Below are positions 700 to 60,003 of a stretch of DNA of 64,000 bases, one piece after another. Source of the stretch: Desulfatitalea tepidiphila (GTDB lineage Bacteria > Desulfobacterota > Desulfobacteria > Desulfobacterales > Desulfosarcinaceae); NCBI RefSeq assembly GCF_001293685.1, contig NZ_BCAG01000001.1, forward strand, positions 124,001 to 188,000. The letters run 5' to 3'. Position 1 is the stretch's first letter; every line of letters starts with the position of its first letter. Both the position numbers and the translations under genes were made by a program. The notes below the pieces were generated by a model. It was not told the DNA's origin. It was given only the letters and a program-made list of their open reading frames with translations, and did no database searches.

Positions 700-1461
700 A
701 TGACTGTTCGCTTCGATCTATCAGGAAAAGTGGCCATCGTCACCGGCGGCGGCAGAGGCATTGGACGGGCGATCGCCCTGGGGCTGGCCAAGGCCGGCGC
801 CGCGGTGGTCGTCGCCAGCCGCACGGCCGATCAGATCAACGCCGTGGCCGAGGAGATCCGGGCCAATGGCGCCCAGGCGCTGCCACTGGTGACCGATTTG
901 ACCGACGGCGCCCAACTCGAACGACTGGCCGCCGAAACCGTTCAGCAATTCGGTCGTATCGATATCCTGGTGAACAATGCGGCCCGCAGCTTCATGCGCA
1001 GCCTGATGGACCTGCGCGAGGACGGCTGGGACAAGGTGTTCGACACCAATGTCAAGGCGGTGTGGTTGCTGAGCCGCGCGGTGGCGCGTCAGATGATGGC
1101 CCAGAAAAGCGGCCGGATCATCAACATCACCACCGTGGGCGCGGAAAAGGCGGAACTGGGCATGGCCGCCTACGGGTGCAGCAAAGCGGCCCTGAAGATG
1201 CTCACCCGCTGCATGGCCCGCGAGTGGGCCGCGCTCGGTATCCAGGTCAATGCGGTGGGGCCGGGCCTGACCCGCACCGACTTCAGCAAGCCGATCTGGT
1301 CCAATCCGGACATCGAAAAGCACGTCACCGCGATGCTGCCCATGGGACGCATCGGCGAGCCGGAAGAGATCGTTCCGGCCGTGCTCTTTCTGGCCTCGGA
1401 GGCTGCCAGCTATATGACCGGCCATACCATCTACGTCGATGGGGGCGCGCTGACGACGTAG
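700..1461 (+). CDS. SDR-family NAD(P)-dependent oxidoreductase
   Basis: A 253-residue short-chain dehydrogenase/reductase. The start is ATG at 700, six bases after an AAAGGAG ribosome-binding site at 687-693. The N-terminal cofactor motif TGGGRGIG is at residues 15-22, the NNAA motif at 92-95, the structural Asn at 117, and the YxxxK catalytic pair at Y158/K162. The residue 13 before the catalytic Tyr, normally Ser, is Thr145. The C-terminus (DGG near the end) is typical of classical SDRs of the FabG/gluconate dehydrogenase type. The substrate cannot be assigned from sequence. It closely follows the SpmB-like gene and may be co-transcribed with it. Confidence 0.85.
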   Translation: MTVRFDLSGKVAIVTGGGRGIGRAIALGLAKAGAAVVVASRTADQINAVAEEIRANGAQALPLVTDLTDGAQLERLAAETVQQFGRIDILVNNAARSFMRSLMDLREDGWDKVFDTNVKAVWLLSRAVARQMMAQKSGRIINITTVGAEKAELGMAAYGCSKAALKMLTRCMAREWAALGIQVNAVGPGLTRTDFSKPIWSNPDIEKHVTAMLPMGRIGEPEEIVPAVLFLASEAASYMTGHTIYVDGGALTT

Positions 1462-1469
1462 TGCCAAGC

Positions 1470-1722
1470 CAGCGTTTCTAAGTGAATGCGTTTCATTAAA
1501 CCCGGCGTGTGTGGTACAGGTGGCCGATGCCACACGCCAAGCGGTCGAGTGCCGGTAAAATGCACGGCGGGCGGCCCAGAAACTCGCTACGCTCAAACAG
1601 TCTGGGCCGCTTGTCCGCCGTTTGCATTCGAAAGGCACTAAGACCGCAGGCGTACGTGGCCCTGGCCACCTGCTCCCCCCACGCCTGCCATCTCCGCTGC
1701 CATTCGATTCTATTATCAAAAA
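1470..1722 (+). repeat. MITE-like repeat element, copy 1, right end missing
   Basis: Begins CAGCGTTTCTAAGTGAATGC, matching the left terminal inverted repeat of the full copies. It keeps the central GC-rich hairpin and the following GTGGCC/GGCCAC hairpin, then loses similarity shortly after the ATCAAAAAACA stretch near 1715. The right inverted repeat is absent, so no target-site duplication can be assigned. It fills the space between the SDR gene and the convergent PagL-like gene, and probably lost its right end next to the PagL 3' end. Short reading frames within it are not conserved in the other copies. Confidence 0.8.
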
Positions 1723-1749
1723 ACATATATCATGGATCGATCACCACGG

Positions 1750-2334
1750 TTAGAAGCGGTAGATCAGTTCGAGCATGTGGGTGTTGAGCCCCGGGTTTTC
1801 CATGAATAGACCGGCATTGGACATGTGCTGAAAGCTGTAGCCGATGATGAACGACATGGAAAGTATGTAGTCGATGCCCACGGTCGAGGTGAACTGGAGC
1901 GATCCGCCGAAGTCTTCCGAGTCCAATTTAGATCGGGAAAGATAGGTCACGTGCACACCGGCAAAGAGGGCGAGCCGTTTGCCGGGGCTGAGCAGGTAAA
2001 GACCCGGTCCCGCCGAACCCACGAAGGTGTTTTCATCGGAAAGCAGGAAGCCTGCGTTGATCCCCAAAAAAGGGCCGACCAACCAATGCGCGTCCGATTC
2101 CCAGGTATAGGGCAGCCCACAGGCCAAAAAGAGTTCTGATTTTGTGAATTGCTCGCTGTTCCGCGTGTCGCCGACACCCGTGCGCACGCCGGCGGCCAGC
2201 CAGTTGATGTCTTCCGCGTGGACAGGGGAGTGGCCGGCCGCTGCAACGAGAATCGCCAGGGCCGGAGCCAACAGCATTCGAACCCGGTTGGTTCGGAAGA
2301 ACCCTCCTGGTGAGTCTGTGATGAACCCCCACAT
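1750..2334 (-). CDS. PagL-like lipid A 3-O-deacylase / acyloxyacyl hydrolase family outer-membrane protein
   Basis: About 194 residues from ATG 2334, which has a weak AGGA five bases upstream; an internal ATG at 2277 is an alternative. A hydrophobic signal peptide ends VHA before AEDINW. The mature part alternates like a small beta-barrel. The C-terminal region carries the PagL signature: a His-x-Ser-Asn motif (FQHMSNAG), an ENPGLNTHM segment, and a terminal aromatic (IYRF) typical of outer-membrane proteins. PagL enzymes remove the 3-O acyl chain from lipid A using a His-Ser-Glu triad; His and Ser are clear here, the acidic residue is not assigned with certainty. It is isolated, flanked on both sides by copies of the repeat element. 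Confidence 0.72.
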   Translation of the reverse strand: MWGFITDSPGGFFRTNRVRMLLAPALAILVAAAGHSPVHAEDINWLAAGVRTGVGDTRNSEQFTKSELFLACGLPYTWESDAHWLVGPFLGINAGFLLSDENTFVGSAGPGLYLLSPGKRLALFAGVHVTYLSRSKLDSEDFGGSLQFTSTVGIDYILSMSFIIGYSFQHMSNAGLFMENPGLNTHMLELIYRF

Positions 2335-2429
2335 GACGGTCCTGCACAATAATGTTGGGTTGGTGATCGAGAGTTTCGATTGAACCAATTGATGTTTAAG
2401 GCAATTCCAGACGTAAGTCAATTGAAATG

Positions 2430-2753
2430 AATTCTTAACAGCGACTCTAACTGAACGCGATTCATTAAACCCGTCGTGGTTGGAACAGGTGGCCGATGCC
2501 ACACGCCAAGCGGTCAAGAGCCAGTAAAATGCACGGCGGGCGAGCCAGAAACTCGCTGCGCTCAAACAGTCTGGACCGCTTGTCCGCCGTTTGCATTCAA
2601 CTGGCTCTAAGACCGCTGGCTCACGTGGCCCTGGCCACCTGCCCCATCCACGCCTGCCATATCCCTTGCGATGCGAATTTTTGTATCAAAAAACTTTTAA
2701 AAGACGCGCCCGTCAAGAGGAATCGCATTCAGTTGGAATTGCTGAATTCTTAA
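2430..2753 (+). repeat. MITE-like repeat element, copy 2, full length with perfect 9-bp target-site duplication
   Basis: The element occupies 2439-2744 (306 bp). The ends are imperfect inverted repeats (left CAGCGACTCTAACTG, right reverse-complement CAGCAATTCCAACTG; 21 of 25 positions agree). The direct repeat AATTCTTAA lies immediately outside both ends (2430-2438 and 2745-2753), the expected footprint of a transposition event. The interior contains the family's long central hairpin, whose arms start AATGCA/TGCATT, and flanking arms AGAGCCAGT/ACTGGCTCT that pair perfectly in this copy. No conserved coding frame is present. It fills most of the gap between the PagL-like gene and uvrA. Confidence 0.9.
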
Positions 2754-2853
2754 AAATCAACCCGGTGCCATCGGCCGTTTCTGCCTTATTTTGTTTGTTC
2801 GGCTCGAACCGCGGCAATACCGTTTACCCTGAACCGTCATGCAGGAACACAAG

Positions 2854-5800
2854 ATGACCGCCTCCATTCAACTTCGCGGCGTCCGGCAGAACAATCTTAA
2901 AGACGTCGACATCGATATCCCTCTGAACCGCATCACCGTGGTGACCGGCGTGAGCGGTTCGGGCAAATCCTCCCTGGCCTTCGATACCCTTTACGCCGAA
3001 GGCCAGCGGCGCTACGTCGAAACCTTTTCGCCCTACGCGCGGCAATTCATGGACCGCATGGACCGCCCCCAGGTCGATCGGATCCTGGGCGTGCCGCCGG
3101 CCATCGCCATCGACCGCAAGGACCCGGTGCGCACCTCGCGTTCGTCCGTGGGGACCATGACCGAACTGACCGATTACGTGAAGTTGATCTTCGCCCGCCG
3201 GGGGGTGTTGCACTGCCGTCGATGCCGCCGGCCGGTGCGGCCCGATGCGCCTGAACAGATCGTCGGGCGTCTGATCGACGAAACCGACGGGCGGCGCCTG
3301 ACCATCACCTTTCCCTACCACTGCCCGGATGGGCCCAAAGCAGGTCGCAAGACCTTGATGCGCCTGGGATACGACCGTGTATGGGTCAAGGAAGAGGTCC
3401 AAAGCCTGATGGATTTGCCGGACAACGCCTTGGAGACGGCCCTGGATGTGGTGGCCGACCGTACGACGGCGGATGCCGGTCGACGGCAGCGGCTGGTCGA
3501 TTCTCTGGAAACCGCTTTCCGCTTCGGCGGCGGCCGGGCAGATGTGTGGATCGCGGGCGGCGGCCGACAGGCTTATTCCAACCGCATACACTGCGCCCAC
3601 TGCGACATCGATTATGTCGCTCCGTTGCCCAATCTCTTTTCGTTCAACAGCCCCCTGGGCGCCTGCGACACCTGTCGGGGATTCGGGCGGGTGATCGACA
3701 TGGATCTGGACCTGATCATTCCCGATCCGGCGCGCTCGCTGGAACAGGGGGCCATCAAACCTTTCGGCGGAGCGGCCGAGGGGCGCTTCGAGTACCGGGA
3801 TTTGAGCGGATTCTGCCGCGAACGGGGCATTGCCATGGATGCCCCCTTCCGCCGGTTGCCGGCTGATCAGCGACAAGCGATCATCGACGGTGACGACGGT
3901 TATTACGGCATCCGCGGCTATTTTCAATGGCTGGAGAGCCGCAGTTACAAGATGCATGTGCGCGTCTTCCTGTCGCGTTATCGCAGCTACGATCTCTGTC
4001 CGGCCTGCCACGGCACCCGCTTCAAGCCCGAGACTCTGCTGTACCGCATCGAGGGCCGCACCATCGCCGAAGTCTATGCCCTCAACGTGGATCAGGCCCT
4101 GGCCTTTTTCGACGACCTGGAACGTTGCGTCCGGGACGAAGCCGACGTCCTTGTGCTCGGGGAGATCACGGGGCGCCTGCGGTATCTGCGGGATGTGGGG
4201 CTGGGCTACCTGACCCTGGATCGCCAGTCTCGCACCCTGTCGGGCGGCGAGGTGCAGCGGGTGGCCCTCGCATCGGCCCTTGGTGCATCCCTGGTCAACA
4301 CCCTCTATGTACTCGACGAGCCGAGCATCGGCCTGCACCCCAGGGACAACGAGCGACTGGCCCGCATTCTGCAGCGGCTCCGCGACCTGCCCAACACCAT
4401 CGTGGTGGTGGAGCACGATCCGGCCATCATCCGGGCGGCCGACTACCTGCTCGATATGGGCCCCCGGGCCGGCGAGCAGGGCGGGCGTGTCATGTACTTC
4501 GGTCCCGTGGCAGAGGCCGGGACCTCCTTGACCGGCCAATATCTTTCGGGAGAAAAAACCATTCCCATGCCGGTTCGACGCCGGACGCCCAGACGCGGCC
4601 AATGGCTCACCGTGCGCGGGGCGGCCGAGCACAACCTGAAATCCATAGACGTGAGGCTTCCCTTGGGGATGCTGGTGTGCCTGACCGGCGTGAGCGGTTC
4701 GGGCAAGTCCACCCTGGCCGAGGAGATTCTCTATAAAGGGGTCAAGCGCCGGCTCGGCGAGGGCGAAGGCCGGCCGGGCAGGTTCCGCCGGATCGACGGC
4801 GGTGAAAAGATACGGCAGGTCGAACTGGTCGATCAGCGGCCCATCGGCCGCACGCCGCGGGCCAATGTGCTGACCTACACCAAGGCGATGGACCCGATCC
4901 GCCGGTTGTTGGCCGCCACGGAGACGGCCGTTGCCCGGGGATTTGGTCCCGGTCACTTCTCGTTCAACGTGGCCGGCGGCCGCTGCGAGACCTGCAAGGG
5001 CGAAGGTTACGAGACCGTGGAGATGCAATTTCTCTCCGATGTCTTTATTTCGTGCCCCGACTGCCAGGGCAAACGTTTCAAGCCCGAGGTGCTGGAGGTC
5101 GTCTACCGGGAGCATAATATCCACCAGATCCTGCAGCTGACCGTGGATGAGGCCTTGGTGTTCTTCGGCGATCAATCCAGAATCGTCGCCGCCCTGCAGC
5201 CGCTTGCCGATGTGGGGCTGGGCTATCTGAGGCTGGGGCAGCCGATTTCGACCTTTTCGGGCGGCGAGGCCCAGCGCCTCAAGCTTTCACGCTACCTGGG
5301 GGTCGGCCGCCAGGCGCGGCTGCTGATTTTTGACGAGCCCACCACCGGTCTGCACCTGGCCGATATCGCCACCTTGCTGCAGGTGATGCAGCGCCTGGTG
5401 GACGAGGGCAACAGCATCCTGATCATCGAGCACCACCTGGATGTGATCAAATCTGCCGACTGGGTCATCGACCTGGGGCCCGAGGGCGGCGACGGCGGCG
5501 GACGGGTGGTGGCCGTCGGCCCGCCCGAAACCATTGCCGCTGCGCCCGCGTCGCACACCGGCCGATTTTTGAAGCCCTGCCTGGAGGGCCGTATCGAAGC
5601 CGCGGCGCGGGTTGCGCCGCCGGCCGCTTCGGACAATGGCGGTGCGATCCAAGTGCGCGGCGCACGGGAGCACAACCTGAAAAATGTGGACCTGGCCGTT
5701 CCCCACAACCAGTTGGTGGTGTTGACCGGGGTGAGCGGCTCGGGCAAGTCCACATTGGCGTTCGACATCCTGTTCGCCGAAGGGCAACGCCGCTACCTGG

Positions 5801-8142
5801 AGAGCCTGGCGCCTTACGTGCGCCAATATATGAAGATCCTCGAGCGGCCCGAAGTGGATCTGGTCACCGGTCTGTCGCCCACCGTGGCCATCGAACAACG
5901 CATCAGCCACACCAGCCGGCGGTCGACCGTGGCGACCTTGACCGAGATTTATCATTTTCTGCGCCTGCTCTACTCCAAGCTGGGCAATGCCCATTGCCCG
6001 GGATGCTTGCGGCCCCTGTCGCGTCAGAGCGAAGCGGAGGTCAAAGAACGGATCGCCGGCCGCTACGGTCGAAGAGGGGTATTGCTCTTGGCGCCCAAGA
6101 TCGCCGGGCGCAAGGGCTATCACAAAGAGGTGCTCGCCCGAGCCCTGAAACTCGGATACGACCGTGCCCGCGTAGACGGCCAGATGGTGGCGCTGACGCC
6201 GGGCATGGCCTTGAGCCGCTACCATGACCATTCCATCGATCTGGTGGTGGGTGAAATTCCCAACGGACGGGGCGCAGAAGCGCGCCTGACGGATCTGGTG
6301 AACACGGCGCTGAAAGAAGGGGACGGGACCCTGATCGTGCTCGATCCGGAAAGCGGCCGGGAGGAGCTGTCCAGCGTACACGGCCGCTGCCCCTCCTGCG
6401 GCCTGGGCGCGGTTCAGGGCGATCCACGGCTTTTTTCCTTCAATTCCCCCCAGGGCGCCTGCCCGCGTTGCGATGGATTGGGGGTTGTGGGCGTGGACGA
6501 GTTCCGGGAGGGAAAAGATGCCAAGATCTGCCCCGACTGCCAGGGCAGCCGATTGCGGCCGGAAGCCTTGTCGGTGCAGGTTCAGGGGCGCACCATCTGG
6601 GACTTGGTGCGGCAACCGGCCGGTGAACTGCTCCCCATCCTGGATCGCCTGTCGTTCCCCGAACAACAGGGTCCCCTGGCAGACCCCATTTTGAGCGAGC
6701 TCAAGACCCGCCTGGCCTTGATGAACCGGCTGGGCCTGGGCTATTTGGCCCTCTCGCGCTCGGGCGACACCCTTTCGGGCGGTGAGGCGCAACGGGTGCG
6801 GCTGGCGGCCCAGCTCGGTTCCAACCTCACCGGCGTCACCTATATCCTGGATGAGCCCACCATCGGCCTGCACGCGCGGGACAACCATATCCTGGTGGAG
6901 GCCCTGGGCGACCTGCGCGACCGGGGCAACACCGTCATCGTGGTCGAGCACGACGAAGAGACCATCCGGGCCGCAGACACGATCATCGACCTGGGGCCCG
7001 GGGCCGGTGCCAACGGCGGGCGCGTGGTGGCCGCGGGCGGCCTGGACGACCTGCGGCGCGAGCCCGCTTCGGTCACCGGAGCGGTGCTCGAGCGCGGCCG
7101 AACCCGGATCACCAGCCGGATGCGCCCCTGCCGGCGGGGTCCGGCATTGAAGATCGTCGGCGCCTCGGCCAACAATCTCAAAGGCATCGACGTGCGCCTG
7201 CCCCTCAACCGACTGATCTGCGTGACCGGCGTGAGCGGTTCGGGAAAGTCCAGCCTGGTCAAGAAGACCCTCTACCAGGGACTTCATCAGCGGCTGCGAG
7301 GCCAGTCGCTGTCCAGTGACACGTGCAAGGGCATGGAAGGCTGGCAGGCGCTGACTCGCGTCCTGGAAGTGGACCACACCCCCATCGGCCGGACGCCCCG
7401 ATCGGTGCCGGCCTCCTACGTGGGCTTTCTCACCGACATCCGTAATCTCTTCGCCCAGGTACCGGAGGCGCGGGCCAGGGGATACGGAGCGGCCCGTTTC
7501 TCATTCAATGTGGAAGAGGGCCGTTGTCCGGCCTGCAAGGGACAGGGACGTCCCAAGGTGGAGATGGCCTTTCTGCCCGATGTGTATGTGCCTTGCGAGG
7601 TGTGCGGCGGAGCGCGCTACAATGCGGAGACGCTGGCGATTCGATACAAAGGCAGGCACATGGCCGAGGTGTTGCAGATGACCTTTGCCGAGGCCTTGCA
7701 GTTCTTCTCGGCCATACCGAAGATTCGCCAGGCGGTGCAGTTCGTCTGCGACATCGGGCTGGGTTACCTGCAGCTGGGCCAGCCCAGCCCCACCCTGTCG
7801 GGCGGGGAGGCCCAACGCATCAAGCTGGCCCGGGAGATGGCCCAACGCGCCAACGGTCCGACCCTTTATCTTCTGGACGAGCCCAGCACCGGTCTGCATC
7901 CCGCCGATGTGCACCTGTTGATCGACGTGCTTCAGGGGCTGGTGGCACAGGGACATACGGTGGTGACCATCGAACACAATATGGAGATCATCAATGCGGC
8001 CGATTATCTCATCGACCTGGGGCCCGAGGGCGGAGCAGCCGGTGGAAAGCTGGTGGCCGTGGGCTCACCCCGGGAGATGCTGGGCAAGACGAAGAGATCG
8101 CACACCGCCCGCTACCTCGAGCGATATCTGGATGGGCATTGA
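2854..8142 (+). CDS. uvrA: Tandem (four-ABC-module) excinuclease UvrA
   Basis: 1762 residues, about twice the usual ~940 of UvrA. Two UvrA-like units are fused head to tail. Four P-loops, all GVSGSGKS, lie near residues 32, 612, 959 and 1459. Four signature motifs follow (LSGGEVQRV, FSGGEAQRL, LSGGEAQRV, LSGGEAQRI). Paired CxxC zinc-binding motifs occur in each unit, for example HCRRC, CETC/CPDC and CPAC/CEVC. UvrA recognises bulky DNA lesions and loads UvrB; canonical UvrA works as a dimer. ATG 2854 is preferred over ATG 2839 because AGGAA sits about six bases before it. Double-length UvrA is known in chlamydiae and some other lineages, so the length is not an assembly error in itself. No other uvr gene is nearby. 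Confidence 0.92.
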   Translation: MTASIQLRGVRQNNLKDVDIDIPLNRITVVTGVSGSGKSSLAFDTLYAEGQRRYVETFSPYARQFMDRMDRPQVDRILGVPPAIAIDRKDPVRTSRSSVGTMTELTDYVKLIFARRGVLHCRRCRRPVRPDAPEQIVGRLIDETDGRRLTITFPYHCPDGPKAGRKTLMRLGYDRVWVKEEVQSLMDLPDNALETALDVVADRTTADAGRRQRLVDSLETAFRFGGGRADVWIAGGGRQAYSNRIHCAHCDIDYVAPLPNLFSFNSPLGACDTCRGFGRVIDMDLDLIIPDPARSLEQGAIKPFGGAAEGRFEYRDLSGFCRERGIAMDAPFRRLPADQRQAIIDGDDGYYGIRGYFQWLESRSYKMHVRVFLSRYRSYDLCPACHGTRFKPETLLYRIEGRTIAEVYALNVDQALAFFDDLERCVRDEADVLVLGEITGRLRYLRDVGLGYLTLDRQSRTLSGGEVQRVALASALGASLVNTLYVLDEPSIGLHPRDNERLARILQRLRDLPNTIVVVEHDPAIIRAADYLLDMGPRAGEQGGRVMYFGPVAEAGTSLTGQYLSGEKTIPMPVRRRTPRRGQWLTVRGAAEHNLKSIDVRLPLGMLVCLTGVSGSGKSTLAEEILYKGVKRRLGEGEGRPGRFRRIDGGEKIRQVELVDQRPIGRTPRANVLTYTKAMDPIRRLLAATETAVARGFGPGHFSFNVAGGRCETCKGEGYETVEMQFLSDVFISCPDCQGKRFKPEVLEVVYREHNIHQILQLTVDEALVFFGDQSRIVAALQPLADVGLGYLRLGQPISTFSGGEAQRLKLSRYLGVGRQARLLIFDEPTTGLHLADIATLLQVMQRLVDEGNSILIIEHHLDVIKSADWVIDLGPEGGDGGGRVVAVGPPETIAAAPASHTGRFLKPCLEGRIEAAARVAPPAASDNGGAIQVRGAREHNLKNVDLAVPHNQLVVLTGVSGSGKSTLAFDILFAEGQRRYLESLAPYVRQYMKILERPEVDLVTGLSPTVAIEQRISHTSRRSTVATLTEIYHFLRLLYSKLGNAHCPGCLRPLSRQSEAEVKERIAGRYGRRGVLLLAPKIAGRKGYHKEVLARALKLGYDRARVDGQMVALTPGMALSRYHDHSIDLVVGEIPNGRGAEARLTDLVNTALKEGDGTLIVLDPESGREELSSVHGRCPSCGLGAVQGDPRLFSFNSPQGACPRCDGLGVVGVDEFREGKDAKICPDCQGSRLRPEALSVQVQGRTIWDLVRQPAGELLPILDRLSFPEQQGPLADPILSELKTRLALMNRLGLGYLALSRSGDTLSGGEAQRVRLAAQLGSNLTGVTYILDEPTIGLHARDNHILVEALGDLRDRGNTVIVVEHDEETIRAADTIIDLGPGAGANGGRVVAAGGLDDLRREPASVTGAVLERGRTRITSRMRPCRRGPALKIVGASANNLKGIDVRLPLNRLICVTGVSGSGKSSLVKKTLYQGLHQRLRGQSLSSDTCKGMEGWQALTRVLEVDHTPIGRTPRSVPASYVGFLTDIRNLFAQVPEARARGYGAARFSFNVEEGRCPACKGQGRPKVEMAFLPDVYVPCEVCGGARYNAETLAIRYKGRHMAEVLQMTFAEALQFFSAIPKIRQAVQFVCDIGLGYLQLGQPSPTLSGGEAQRIKLAREMAQRANGPTLYLLDEPSTGLHPADVHLLIDVLQGLVAQGHTVVTIEHNMEIINAADYLIDLGPEGGAAGGKLVAVGSPREMLGKTKRSHTARYLERYLDGH

Positions 8143-20915: not shown

Positions 20916-21238
20916 ATGCCTTTGCAGCAATTCTAACTGAATGTGATTCACCTTGAAGGGCATGCATTACAGAAGGCGTTTGATAAAAAATTCGCACGTC
21001 AACGGTTGAGGCAGGCCCGGGTGGGGCAGGTTGCCAGGGCCACGTGAGCCTGCGCTCTTAGAGCCAGTTAAATGCAAACGGCGGACAAGCGGCCCAGACT
21101 GTTTGAGCGCAGCGAGTTTCCGGGTCGCCCGCCGTGCATTTTACCGGCACTTGACCGCTTGGCGTGTGGCATCGGCCACCTGTCCCACCCGGGCCGGAGT
21201 TGGTGAATGGCATTCAGTTAGAATCCTTCATGCCTTTG
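20916..21238 (-). repeat. MITE-like repeat element, copy 3, full length with perfect 9-bp target-site duplication
   Basis: The element is 20925-21229 (305 bp), inverted relative to copy 2. The left end as written starts CAGCAATTCTAACTGAATG; the right end reads as its imperfect reverse complement (22 of 28 positions). The 9-bp direct repeat ATGCCTTTG flanks it exactly at 20916-20924 and 21230-21238. The central hairpin and the TGTGGCATCGGCCAC segment are conserved. It separates the 7TM kinase from the FmdB/Fur-FeoA run and sits just upstream of that run's promoter region. Confidence 0.9.
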
Positions 21239-45923: not shown

Positions 45924-46120
45924 GAGTCCAGATGGTGCATTCAAAGGCGGAACGATGGCTAACGATCGCCGTGAAGGTCAGTCGATTGGCATGCGGTGGG
46001 CATGCGGTGGGCGGAAAAGCCCCACGGATTGCAGTGGCATTCAGATAGTTACCAACCCGGCGATGGAACTATAATAAGCGATGGCTTCTGGATGTCAACC
46101 AGGCTGTTTTTCACCCGGGG

Positions 46121-46171
46121 ATCCTAACTGAATGCTCCTTATGGGATCCGGTCCGGTTGGGACAGGTGGCC
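46121..46171 (+). repeat. Fragment of the MITE-like repeat fused to the aceK 3' end
   Basis: Starts ATCCTAACTGAATGC, the left-end sequence of the element, and continues with a degenerate match including GGTTGGGACAGGTGGCC. Similarity stops near 46171, so only the first ~50 bases of a copy remain. The aceK stop codon (46139-46141 on the minus strand) and about its last ten codons lie inside the fragment. Confidence 0.65.
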
Positions 46172-47902
46172 GGGCCGCAACCGTTGCGCTTGATTGTAGG
46201 GCAGGATCGGGGTCAGCGCACCGGAGCGGATCTGCTCCTGGCTCTCGATCCAGAATTCGGGGGTCAATAGATCGGCGTGGTGTTTCATGAAGATGTCCCG
46301 CAGATCCGCGGGCATGGCCAGGAAACGGGCGAATTCCTCGGGAAACACGTCGTTTTCCGCCACCATGTACCACGGTTCGGCAGCCATTTCGTCTTCGTAC
46401 GCCCGGGCCTGGGGCAGCCAACGGAAATGGCAGTCGGTCAGCGGGCACAATTCGTCGTAGTCGTAAAAAATGACCCGTCCCAACTGGGTGACCCCGAAAT
46501 TTTTAAGCAGCATATCCCCTGGAAACACATTGATGTGCGCCAGGTCCTTGATCGCCCGGCCATAATCGATGACGGCCGCCTTGGCATCGGCGGCATCGGC
46601 TTGTTTGAGATAGACGTCCAGGGGAATGAGACGTCTTTCCACGTAGACATGGTGCAGGACGACCCGGTTGCCGTCGACGGTGGCGGTGCGCCGGGCACCG
46701 GTTTCAATTTCATTCAACAAATCCGGGGTAAAGCAGCAATCCTCGATTTCCAGGTTTTCGAAGGTCTGCACATCGATCAGGCGTCCGGCCCGGTCGTGCC
46801 TGAAAACATAGTCGTACTTTTCCATCACCTGCTGCGGGGTGGCGTGCTTGGGAGAGGCGAAGCGGTCTCGGATCAGTTTGTAGATCAGGTTGTCCTGGGG
46901 CATGTTGAAGGCGATCATGACCATGCCCCGCTGTCCGGGGGAAAATTGGAAGCGATCCAGGCCGCAGACCTCCCGGTGGGCGATCAGGTCCCGGTACAGT
47001 TCGGTCTTGCCGTGCTTGTTGTATCCCAGTCCGATATAGAGTTCGGCGATGCGCTTGGTGGGCATCAGTTCTTTTAAAAAGCGCACCAACTCGCCGGGAC
47101 ATGCGGTTTGAACATGAAAATAGGTGTGACTGAAGCTGAACAGGACCCGAACTTCTTCGGTTCTGAGCAACAGGGCATCCACGTAAAGCCCGTCGGGACC
47201 GTTGCCTAACGCGAAAACCAGCGGCATCTGAACATTCGCCATACGCATGCGGCCGATCAGGTAGGCCCCCATCTCCCGGTAAAACGGGGAGGCAACCATG
47301 TCGATGCGCAGGGTCGTTCGCCAATGACCTCCGCCAATGGACTTGAGGCGAAGATTGATGCGTTCGGCGCACAGGCGGGCATCGGTCGCAACATCCGCAA
47401 AAGGCGTGCACAGTCTGAAACGGTCGATCAGGCCCTTGATGGTCTCATCGGTCACCTTGGAAACCTCCAGAGAGAACATCAGGGGGGCATGATCGGGCGG
47501 GGTGTCGGGCGAGGGTTGAGGGGCAATGAATTCAAGATCCGGATCGATGCCGACCGTTTGCAGGATCCGGCGGTTGACCGAGTTGTAGAAGGTGCAGGCC
47601 AGTTCGGCGTCATGACGATGATGCGCCCGTTCCTGGAAGTATTGCTTTATCTTCCGCCATACGGCAGGATTCTGGACCTGCGGGCCTGACAAATCGATGA
47701 GTTTTCGAGACGTGTCTACCACCACCTTGGTGTACAAATCGAGTCGCCGAGCCGTATCCTGGCGCATGCCGAGCCAGTCGCGCCGCTCGAAACGGACCGC
47801 GGCGCGTTGGGAGATATACGAAAATGCACGTGTGTACTTCCCATAACCATTCCACACCAGATCGGATGCTTGGGCGACCTGCGCTTGTCTGTCGGGATGC
47901 AT
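46139..47902 (-). CDS. aceK: Isocitrate dehydrogenase kinase/phosphatase
   Basis: 587 residues from ATG 47902, close to the usual AceK size. Recognised by RFQFSPGQRGMVMIAF, the ATP-binding region KYDYVFRHDRAGRLIDVQTF, and the kinase catalytic part INVFPGDMLLKNFGV...IFYDYDELCPLTDC. AceK phosphorylates and inactivates isocitrate dehydrogenase, diverting isocitrate into the glyoxylate bypass, so the nearby aceB-aceA genes fit. The C-terminal residues (GHLSQPDRIP) are encoded by a repeat fragment and are unlikely to be ancestral. A small zinc-ribbon gene is 23 bases upstream. Confidence 0.94.
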   Translation of the reverse strand: MHPDRQAQVAQASDLVWNGYGKYTRAFSYISQRAAVRFERRDWLGMRQDTARRLDLYTKVVVDTSRKLIDLSGPQVQNPAVWRKIKQYFQERAHHRHDAELACTFYNSVNRRILQTVGIDPDLEFIAPQPSPDTPPDHAPLMFSLEVSKVTDETIKGLIDRFRLCTPFADVATDARLCAERINLRLKSIGGGHWRTTLRIDMVASPFYREMGAYLIGRMRMANVQMPLVFALGNGPDGLYVDALLLRTEEVRVLFSFSHTYFHVQTACPGELVRFLKELMPTKRIAELYIGLGYNKHGKTELYRDLIAHREVCGLDRFQFSPGQRGMVMIAFNMPQDNLIYKLIRDRFASPKHATPQQVMEKYDYVFRHDRAGRLIDVQTFENLEIEDCCFTPDLLNEIETGARRTATVDGNRVVLHHVYVERRLIPLDVYLKQADAADAKAAVIDYGRAIKDLAHINVFPGDMLLKNFGVTQLGRVIFYDYDELCPLTDCHFRWLPQARAYEDEMAAEPWYMVAENDVFPEEFARFLAMPADLRDIFMKHHADLLTPEFWIESQEQIRSGALTPILPYNQAQRLRPGHLSQPDRIP

Positions 47903-51074: not shown

Positions 51075-51397
51075 CTGAATATCCAGCAATTCTAATTGAA
51101 TGTGATTCACCGTGAAGGGCGCGCCTTCCAAATGATTTTTGATAAAAAGACCGCACGGCAACGGACATGGCAGGCGTGGGTGGGGCAGGTGGCCAGGGCC
51201 ACATACGCCTGCGGTCCTAGTGCCGGTTTAATGCAAACGGCGGACGAGCGGCCCAGACTGTTTGAGCGCAGCGAGTTTCTGGGCCGCCCGCCGTGCATTT
51301 TAACGGCATTCGACCGCTTGGCGTGTGGCATCGGCCACCTGTTCAATCCACGCCGGGTTTAATGAATAACGTTCAGTTAGGATCGCTGATGAATAAC
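51075..51397 (-). repeat. MITE-like repeat element, copy 4, full length with decayed target-site duplication
   Basis: The element is 51084-51388 (305 bp), same orientation as copy 3. The ends are CAGCAATTCTAATTGAATG and the imperfect reverse complement ending GGATCGCTG (21 of 28 positions). The flanking nonamers CTGAATATC (51075-51083) and ATGAATAAC (51389-51397) agree at seven of nine positions, consistent with an old duplication. The central hairpin spans 51230-51299. The 126 bases from here to the dehydrogenase gene hold nothing recognised. Confidence 0.85.
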
Positions 51398-59721: not shown

Positions 59722-59900
59722 GGAGGTCGTTTCTATCGTGAATTCATTCTGGCCTGATCCGCAACCCCTTCGAAGATAAGGCACCCGATCCTTTTAGCCT
59801 ACGTTACAATGGAAATAAAGCCCATTTCCGTGCGATGGATGCAAGTCCGGGATCCGGGGATGGCATATGTCACGAACTCATGGACCGGCGCGACCCAGCG
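59722..59900. other. Intergenic region upstream of the ABC-F gene
   Basis: Apart from the repeat fragment beginning at 59901, I see nothing recognisable here. It must contain the promoter of the ABC-F gene and the 3' end of the sugar-kinase-like transcript. Confidence 0.3.
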
Positions 59901-60003
59901 ATTGAAACTGAACGCCAAGCATTAAATCCGGCGTGGGTGGAACAGGTGGCCGATGCCACACGCCGAGCGGTCAATTGCCGGTAAAATGCAATCGGCGGGC
60001 GAG
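59901..60003 (+). repeat. Fragment of the MITE-like repeat fused to the 3' end of the sugar-kinase-like gene
   Basis: From 59901 the sequence matches the left part of the element: GAAACTGAACGCC, then GGAACAGGTGGCCGATGCCA and CGGTAAAATGCA. Similarity ends near 60003, about a third of the way into the element. The stop codon (59971-59973, minus strand) and last ~10 codons (ARRLHFTGN) of the kinase-like gene are inside it. In the full copies the same bases (TGCATTTTACCGG) are non-coding. Confidence 0.75.

Follow-up and report, generated by a model that had tools for sequence, protein, structure and literature searches.

Element 2, a 306-bp repeat in the window (the whole 64-kb stretch of Desulfatitalea DNA that was analysed), is a MITE. 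This is established by its anatomy, by the target-site duplications of the family, by an empty site in a related genome and by a transposon with the same ends. The explanation that best accounts for the whole, to which we give a probability of about 0.9, is that the MITE was mobilised in trans by a transposase of the kind that this transposon encodes, and, more tentatively, that a hairpin module gained transposon ends. (Our confidence moved from 0.92 to 0.90, and that in a host element, considered below, rose slightly, because the core of the element changes slowly and because the insertion sequences with the closest ends lack duplications.)

The sequence-only reading had described an element of about 306 bp with imperfect terminal inverted repeats, a perfect 9-bp target-site duplication and no reading frame conserved between copies, and each of these points was borne out. 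The coordinates are exact (Table 1), with AATTCTTAA at 2430–2438 and again at 2745–2753, and the two ends, CAGCGACTCTAACTGAA and CAGCAATTCCAACTGAA, are identical at 14 of 17 positions. The element folds into one long imperfect hairpin of −152.5 kcal/mol, compared to a mean of −91.1 kcal/mol for shuffled sequences (n = 100, z = −11.8). The longest Met-started ORFs of 46 copies range from 34 to 95 aa and are spread over five frames, with no reading frame in common.

Table 1. Coordinates of element 2, its parts and the other copies in the window.
Feature	Position	Strand	Basis
Left target-site duplication AATTCTTAA, 9 bp	2430..2438		sequence; single copy at the empty site of G007
MITE copy 2 (element 2), 306 bp, one long imperfect palindrome	2439..2744	+	ends, copies, fold, target-site duplications
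Left terminal inverted repeat CAGCGACTCTAACTGAA	2439..2455	+	sequence, genome end counts, insertion sequence ends
Conserved core hairpin (element positions 48-205)	2486..2643	+	per-column conservation, 46 copies; loop not found in the group's insertion sequences
Apical loop ACTGTTTGAGCGCAGCGAGTTT (minus-strand writing), common to several phyla	2549..2570	-	loop scans
Right terminal inverted repeat CAGCAATTCCAACTGAA (minus strand)	2728..2744	-	sequence, genome end counts
Right target-site duplication AATTCTTAA, 9 bp	2745..2753		sequence; empty site of G007
Copy 1, older, right end decayed	1470..1737	+	orthologous place in G007 also occupied
Copy 3, full length, perfect 9-bp duplication CAAAGGCAT (minus strand)	20925..21229	-	same as locus L033
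Copy 4, full length, duplication 7/9	51084..51388	-	sequence, scoring of target-site duplications
Truncated copy, ends at ...TAAAATGCA	59896..59990	+	sequence
Short remnant of left end	46116..46172	+	sequence

Besides element 2, the window holds three near-complete copies and two remnants. The truncated copy that stops at window position 59990 shares its break base with another truncated copy (L057:1595); both stop at the inner hairpin's foot, with ...TAAAATGCA as their last bases, and continue into other sequence beyond it. (To the right of element 2, at 2839–8142 on the plus strand, lies a single 1,767-aa frame with UvrA-like repeats and four Walker-A-like stretches (direct repeats D4, D6, D7 and D9), which looks like two UvrA proteins joined head to tail.)

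An orthologous locus without element 2, which a mobile element should leave in some relative, exists in G007, a Desulfatitalea genome (73% complete) with about 92% DNA identity to the window. In particular, G007 aligns to window positions 1400–2438 and 2740–3400 as one continuous stretch at about 92% identity, with element 2 absent and one copy of AATTCTTAA where the two parts meet. (Sequence beside the site is matched by all 11 genomes of the genus; besides G000, the window's own genome, only G007, 1 of the 10 relatives, matches from the first base of the query.) The insertion of element 2 postdates the split from this relative. Copy 1, which lies 969 bp from element 2, is present at the same place in G007, and thus an old and a newer insertion stand side by side. 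A second insertion of G000 (L011) is also absent from G007, several others are common to both genomes, whole or truncated, and at one shared site (L026/L396) a full copy in G000 corresponds to a 68-bp internal-deletion form in G007. Such 68-bp mini-elements, in which both ends are kept and the core is missing, occur at L034:1501-1568 and L396:1576-1643, and a 437-bp copy with an 8/9 duplication (L023:1324-1760) carries an extra internal insert with inverted ends of its own (CCGTAAAAAG). We entertained two further rearrangements between the genomes and rejected both: an apparent core deletion in G007 (L385) is an assembly gap of NN, and an apparent inversion (L076/L423) is better explained by two neighbouring insertions with different duplications. 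The NN in the former copy (1547-1772) falls at the hairpin, and several copies in G274 lie no more than 70 bases from a contig start. The palindromic centre thus seems to break assemblies, so that fragmented genomes may hold more copies than were counted.

Many genomic copies with similar ends and 9-bp duplications had been expected, and G000 (5.6 Mb, 98% complete) holds them. Allowing one mismatch at most, 136 matches to the end motif were counted, compared to 0 for a reversed-pattern control, and a DNA search returned 201 first-look candidates, 40 of which were scored and all 40 of which were copies. (These 40 gave 44 rows, the four extra ones being a copy matching its own opposite arm.) The family in Desulfatitalea perhaps numbers about 200 copies. 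Among 47 paired elements of 250–340 bp, at least 7 of 9 bases of the duplication are kept in 35 (12 perfect, 11 at 8/9 and 12 at 7/9) and fewer than 7 in the other 12; when left and right flanks were paired across elements as a control, 7 or more bases matched in 0.18%. (The 47 were taken from the window and from loci picked by best match or intact ends, are part of the 201 candidates, and include five G007 copies and at least two spurious end re-pairings, all of which were kept.) MITE insertions favour intergenic sequence: according to a crude ORF caller, 14 of 35 insertion points fall within called ORFs, compared to 256 of 282 random window positions.

A parent transposon had also been predicted, with matching ends on either side of a transposase. 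None was found in G000; however, when 146 relatives were scanned, an exact pair of the end motifs turned up 1,712 bp apart in G041, a genome from another family of the same order. That the best-matching transposon lies outside the bacterial family to which the host of the MITE belongs, albeit in the same order, counts against our best explanation. Both ends of this insertion sequence match the consensus right end of the MITE at 17 of 17 positions and the consensus left end at 16 of 17, and the next 30 bp inside the left end match the two MITE ends at 17 and 15 positions, those inside the right end at 7 and 6, where about 7.5 are expected by chance. Taken together with the empty site and the duplications at 35 of 47 elements, the same-ended transposon supports the claim that element 2 is a non-autonomous mobile element of the MITE kind.

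The insertion sequence of G041 encodes a transposase-like protein (434 aa taken from a frame of 448 aa) that gives weak though consistent matches to the Pfam models DDE_Tnp_1_assoc (PF13808, E 4e-6) and DDE_Tnp_1 (PF01609, E 4.8e-5). At 23.6 bits the PF01609 match is just above its cut-off of 23, whereas at 27.2 bits the PF13808 match falls below its cut-off of 32.3, which leaves the protein outside ISAs1 by this measure. The PF01609 domain is also present in families other than IS4. Against NCBIfam the protein gave weak IS701 and IS1380 matches only, and 1 of 14 plasmid homologues is annotated as 'ISNCY family transposase'. Judged by its domain matches, the protein is IS4/ISAs1-like but outside any named family so far, and G041-type insertion sequences are possibly a separate group. 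The closest relatives of the transposase have stretches in common, among them D[GD][ST]-x-YF, D-x-L and RWK[IV]ENE, which by their position would be the catalytic D, D and E. (The alignment had eleven rows, two of which, L193 and L196, were in wrong frames.)

Homologues of the G041 transposase were present at E 1e-10 in 26 of the 146 relatives and in neither G000 (98% complete) nor G007 (73% complete). Within the genus, G001 carries a decayed insertion sequence whose end is similar, matching at 15 and 16 of 17 positions. A search of the genus for an ISAs1 parent by way of PF13808 was unproductive: 2 of 11 genomes matched, one of them over the cut-off, and G000 did not. (The PF13808 copy of G004 lies within a 2.1-kb stretch with fold-back ends, and the 15 best inverted pairs around it include no CAG end.)

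Perfect 9-bp duplications flank 4 of 18 transposase loci (L188 and L208 in G023, L196 in G258 and L197 in G206), and the transposases at these loci have 29–36% protein identity to that of G041. At the four insertion sequences with the most MITE-like ends we found no duplication, the number of matching bases out of nine being 1 for L181 (G041), 3 for L182 (G017), 0 for L183 (G308) and 4 for L185 (G310). The last two end in CAGCAATTCTCGGTGAA, which is the end of a 251-bp MITE in G005 and G009, and one G009 copy of that MITE (L068) has a perfect 9-bp duplication. The 306-bp and the 251-bp MITE, two families in one genus, thus correspond to two branches of one group of insertion sequences. ISAs1 elements have 8–10-bp duplications and CAGGG-type ends. 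The parent group is like such insertion sequences (DDE_Tnp_1 plus DDE_Tnp_1_assoc) in its DDE-type protein and, at 4 of 18 loci though at none of the four with the closest ends, in its 9-bp duplications; its CAG-starting ends (CAGCAATTC..) are partly alike, and it is unlike them in its sub-threshold PF13808 match.

The interior of the MITE is unlike the transposon. Derivation from a parent by internal deletion is common for MITE interiors but not required, and it is not what we found in seven insertion sequences of the group, where the best match to the loop was 13–14 of 21 bases; a looser scan of loci L139–L210 returned one string with several mismatches, which lies outside the insertion sequence of L182. 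Moreover, the same loop occurs in different outer arms within the genus, which argues that the hairpin behaves as a module. In addition to the 306-bp MITE and the 251-bp MITE with another insertion sequence end, a 308-bp element of G001 (L066:1362-1669) has the same loop between other CAG ends, CAGGGCAATCGCATTTGG, with GCTGCCTGCG repeated over 10 bp on its flanks, and is perhaps a third MITE shell for the hairpin. In G008 and G010 the loop sits in palindromes of about 179–185 bp that have the ends of neither the 306-bp nor the 251-bp MITE.

Beyond the genus the loop is present without the Desulfatitalea MITE ends. The 22-base centre, with at most one mismatch, was found in 17 of 291 genomes of the class, belonging to 11 of 123 genera, with 0 among the rows shown for its reversed control. 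When named genomes were scanned for the 21-base pattern CTGTTTGAGCGNAGCGAGTTT, for which about 0.1 matches are expected by chance in uniform sequence, at least 116 stretches were returned; the 80 listed belong, according to their record titles, to Bacteroidota, Bacillota, Nitrospirota, Pseudomonadota and Desulfobacterota. All 14 named genomes that were counted, which had been chosen for having a match, hold between 1 and 19 loop copies, and the control gave 0. Next to the loop, the eight adjacent bases pair at 6.9 of 8 positions compared to 3.3 of 8 after the arms of different elements were exchanged (97 distinct arm pairs from 230 occurrences, the family's own copies included). In plasmid and phage records there was no match to a 126-base core at E 0.1. 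Six 17-base loop and motif strings were absent from the searchable literature, which leaves figures and most subscription papers outside its reach, and absence from literature and databases is no proof that the loop is undescribed.

The arrangement of the loop varies among its hosts. In Bacteroides luti (NZ_FQTV01000003.1; L238 and L254) all 17 copies lie in one 58-kb stretch at about 78–137 kb, many of them 1.1–2.2 kb apart and with alternating strands in the first part of the stretch. Integron-like marking of cassettes was considered for this genome and found unsupported, since the intervening genes look ordinary and mutually unlike (one 8-kb stretch, by eye). Inverted pairs of loop hairpins about 230–300 bp apart occur in Parabacteroides massiliensis (C1:477629/477863) and Curvibacter (C1:591839/592073).

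These distributions bear on the alternative that fares best, according to which the loop found across phyla belongs to a mobile hairpin in its own right, moved by an enzyme or other factor of its own, to which transposon ends were added later in Desulfatitalea, giving two systems of mobility. The different shells within one genus and the copies outside it speak for this; however, among the 106 occurrences of the loop in G000, all 13 that were listed lie inside MITE copies, with no sign of independent movement. We regard the alternative as unlikely, though it carries real weight.

According to a second alternative, the repeat serves the host in the main, as a regulatory or RNA element (a terminator, an mRNA stabiliser or a small RNA), and its repeat nature is secondary. 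It could draw on the bias towards the space between genes, on the conservation of the loop across phyla and on the constancy of the core. In 46 copies (a sample that was partly end-selected) per-column conservation is 0.90–0.99 in core segments and 0.82–0.87 in outer ones. Between G000 and G007, three clean shared copies differ at 23 of 473 core positions compared to 38 of 385 outer positions and 167 of 1756 positions in the 300-bp flanks (Fisher p 0.005 for core versus outer and 0.001 for core versus flanks). The rate of change in the core is thus roughly half that of the adjoining sequence, and for this reason the idea that the core evolved neutrally once inserted was dropped. Copy 1 alone shows no such difference (10 of 158 versus 6 of 102). 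(Three rows of shared copies were left out, two as different insertions, L377/L011 and L076/L423, and one as truncated and carrying an insert, L380/L023.) The core is therefore held more constant than the rest among copies and, more weakly, after insertion, possibly through a need of the element itself, host use of some copies or gene conversion.

An RNA constraint should favour G.T mispairs on one strand. Mispairs in the loop-proximal stem comprise 20 G.T and 21 A.C, which argues against a host RNA element and makes the constraint look like one on DNA rather than RNA; the counts are small, and amount to a hint. (In our own 46 copies, forced loop pairs inflate G.T, and the remaining mispairs lean towards A.C when read on the plus strand, equivalent to a lean towards G.T on the strand of the loop.) Nor does Rfam hold a family for the element: at gathering score the whole window gave no match and 11 loci from other phyla gave an unrelated glycine riboswitch only, while the models below threshold were of miRNA and lncRNA that fit long hairpins, the best being MIR1437 (E 2.3e-6; 43.9 bits versus a gathering score of 168). 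The duplications and the empty site mark insertion. We consider a host element improbable; nonetheless, the opposition of mobile to regulatory in the sequence-only reading goes too far, since the hairpin occurs well beyond the transposon and its core changes slowly at the three shared copies.

Movement of the element as single-stranded DNA by a Y1/HUH (RAYT-like) enzyme acting through the hairpin, with the 9-bp repeats incidental, is very improbable: a conserved loop on a covarying stem is what a hairpin read single-stranded would have, and Y1_Tnp genes occur in 7 of 12 genomes tested, but most paired copies carry 9-bp duplications, which are the mark of DDE transposition, the hairpin was found at 0 of 20 Y1 loci (up to 1.5 kb on each side), on which ground linkage to RAYT genes was rejected, and 5 of the 12 hairpin-bearing genomes gave no Y1 match (three of the five being less than 90% complete).

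Among known repeats, the Chunjie MITE of Geobacter uraniireducens is non-coding and folds stably. According to a review, it has 38 copies of 178–235 bp and 57 partial ones, and is short and intergenic with terminal inverted repeats and direct repeats (PMC10969869). The Desulfatitalea element is like it in these described features, but differs in that a same-ended transposon has been identified and in that its centre is a cross-phylum hairpin. MITEs similar in size and placement are well known from bacteria (PMC10969869, PMC3733652), and shorter palindromes are the subject of a third source (PMC12306157). The element also resembles REP/BIME repeats with RAYT in being palindromic, intergenic and of high copy number; unlike them, it is longer, has 9-bp duplications and has no linked Y1 gene. 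REPs are described as carrying a GTAG or CGTC tag (PMC3733652), whereas no such tag stands out by eye in the Desulfatitalea loop.

With respect to the mechanism, the MITE shares its ends with insertion sequences about 1.7 kb long, which encode a DDE_Tnp_1-type transposase. We suggest that a transposase of the G041 group bound the MITE ends in trans and inserted the element at a 9-bp staggered cut, and that autonomous copies were probably lost from G000 later. Weighing against this are the lack of a transposase relative in G000 at E 1e-10, the missing duplications at the insertion sequences with the closest ends and the 12 of 47 paired elements that keep fewer than 7 of 9 duplicated bases. More tentatively, the hairpin may be an older repeat unit that some factor recognises as folded DNA, and that may have gained transposon ends and then spread by them. 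This functional reading of the hairpin draws on its conservation. In its broadest form it would hold that a DNA hairpin signal not described before is common to five phyla or more, with the loop CTGTTTGAGCGNAGCGAGTTT fixed on stems that vary freely but stay complementary, in repeats that have no recognised mover, that a mobile or cellular factor reads the loop as single-stranded DNA, and that the signal was captured between transposon ends at least twice in Desulfatitalea, a proposal that we judge to have somewhat better than a one-in-three chance.

As a MITE, the element is of an ordinary kind, yet it makes an unusually complete case, with an empty site, old shared copies and a same-ended transposon outside the genome. 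The surprise is the shared hairpin rather than the MITE, and the question that it poses is why unrelated phyla have repeats in which an identical hairpin tip sits on covarying stems. Were a protein to read the loop, it would represent a new class of single-strand DNA signal, and perhaps a REP-like spread without a known enzyme.
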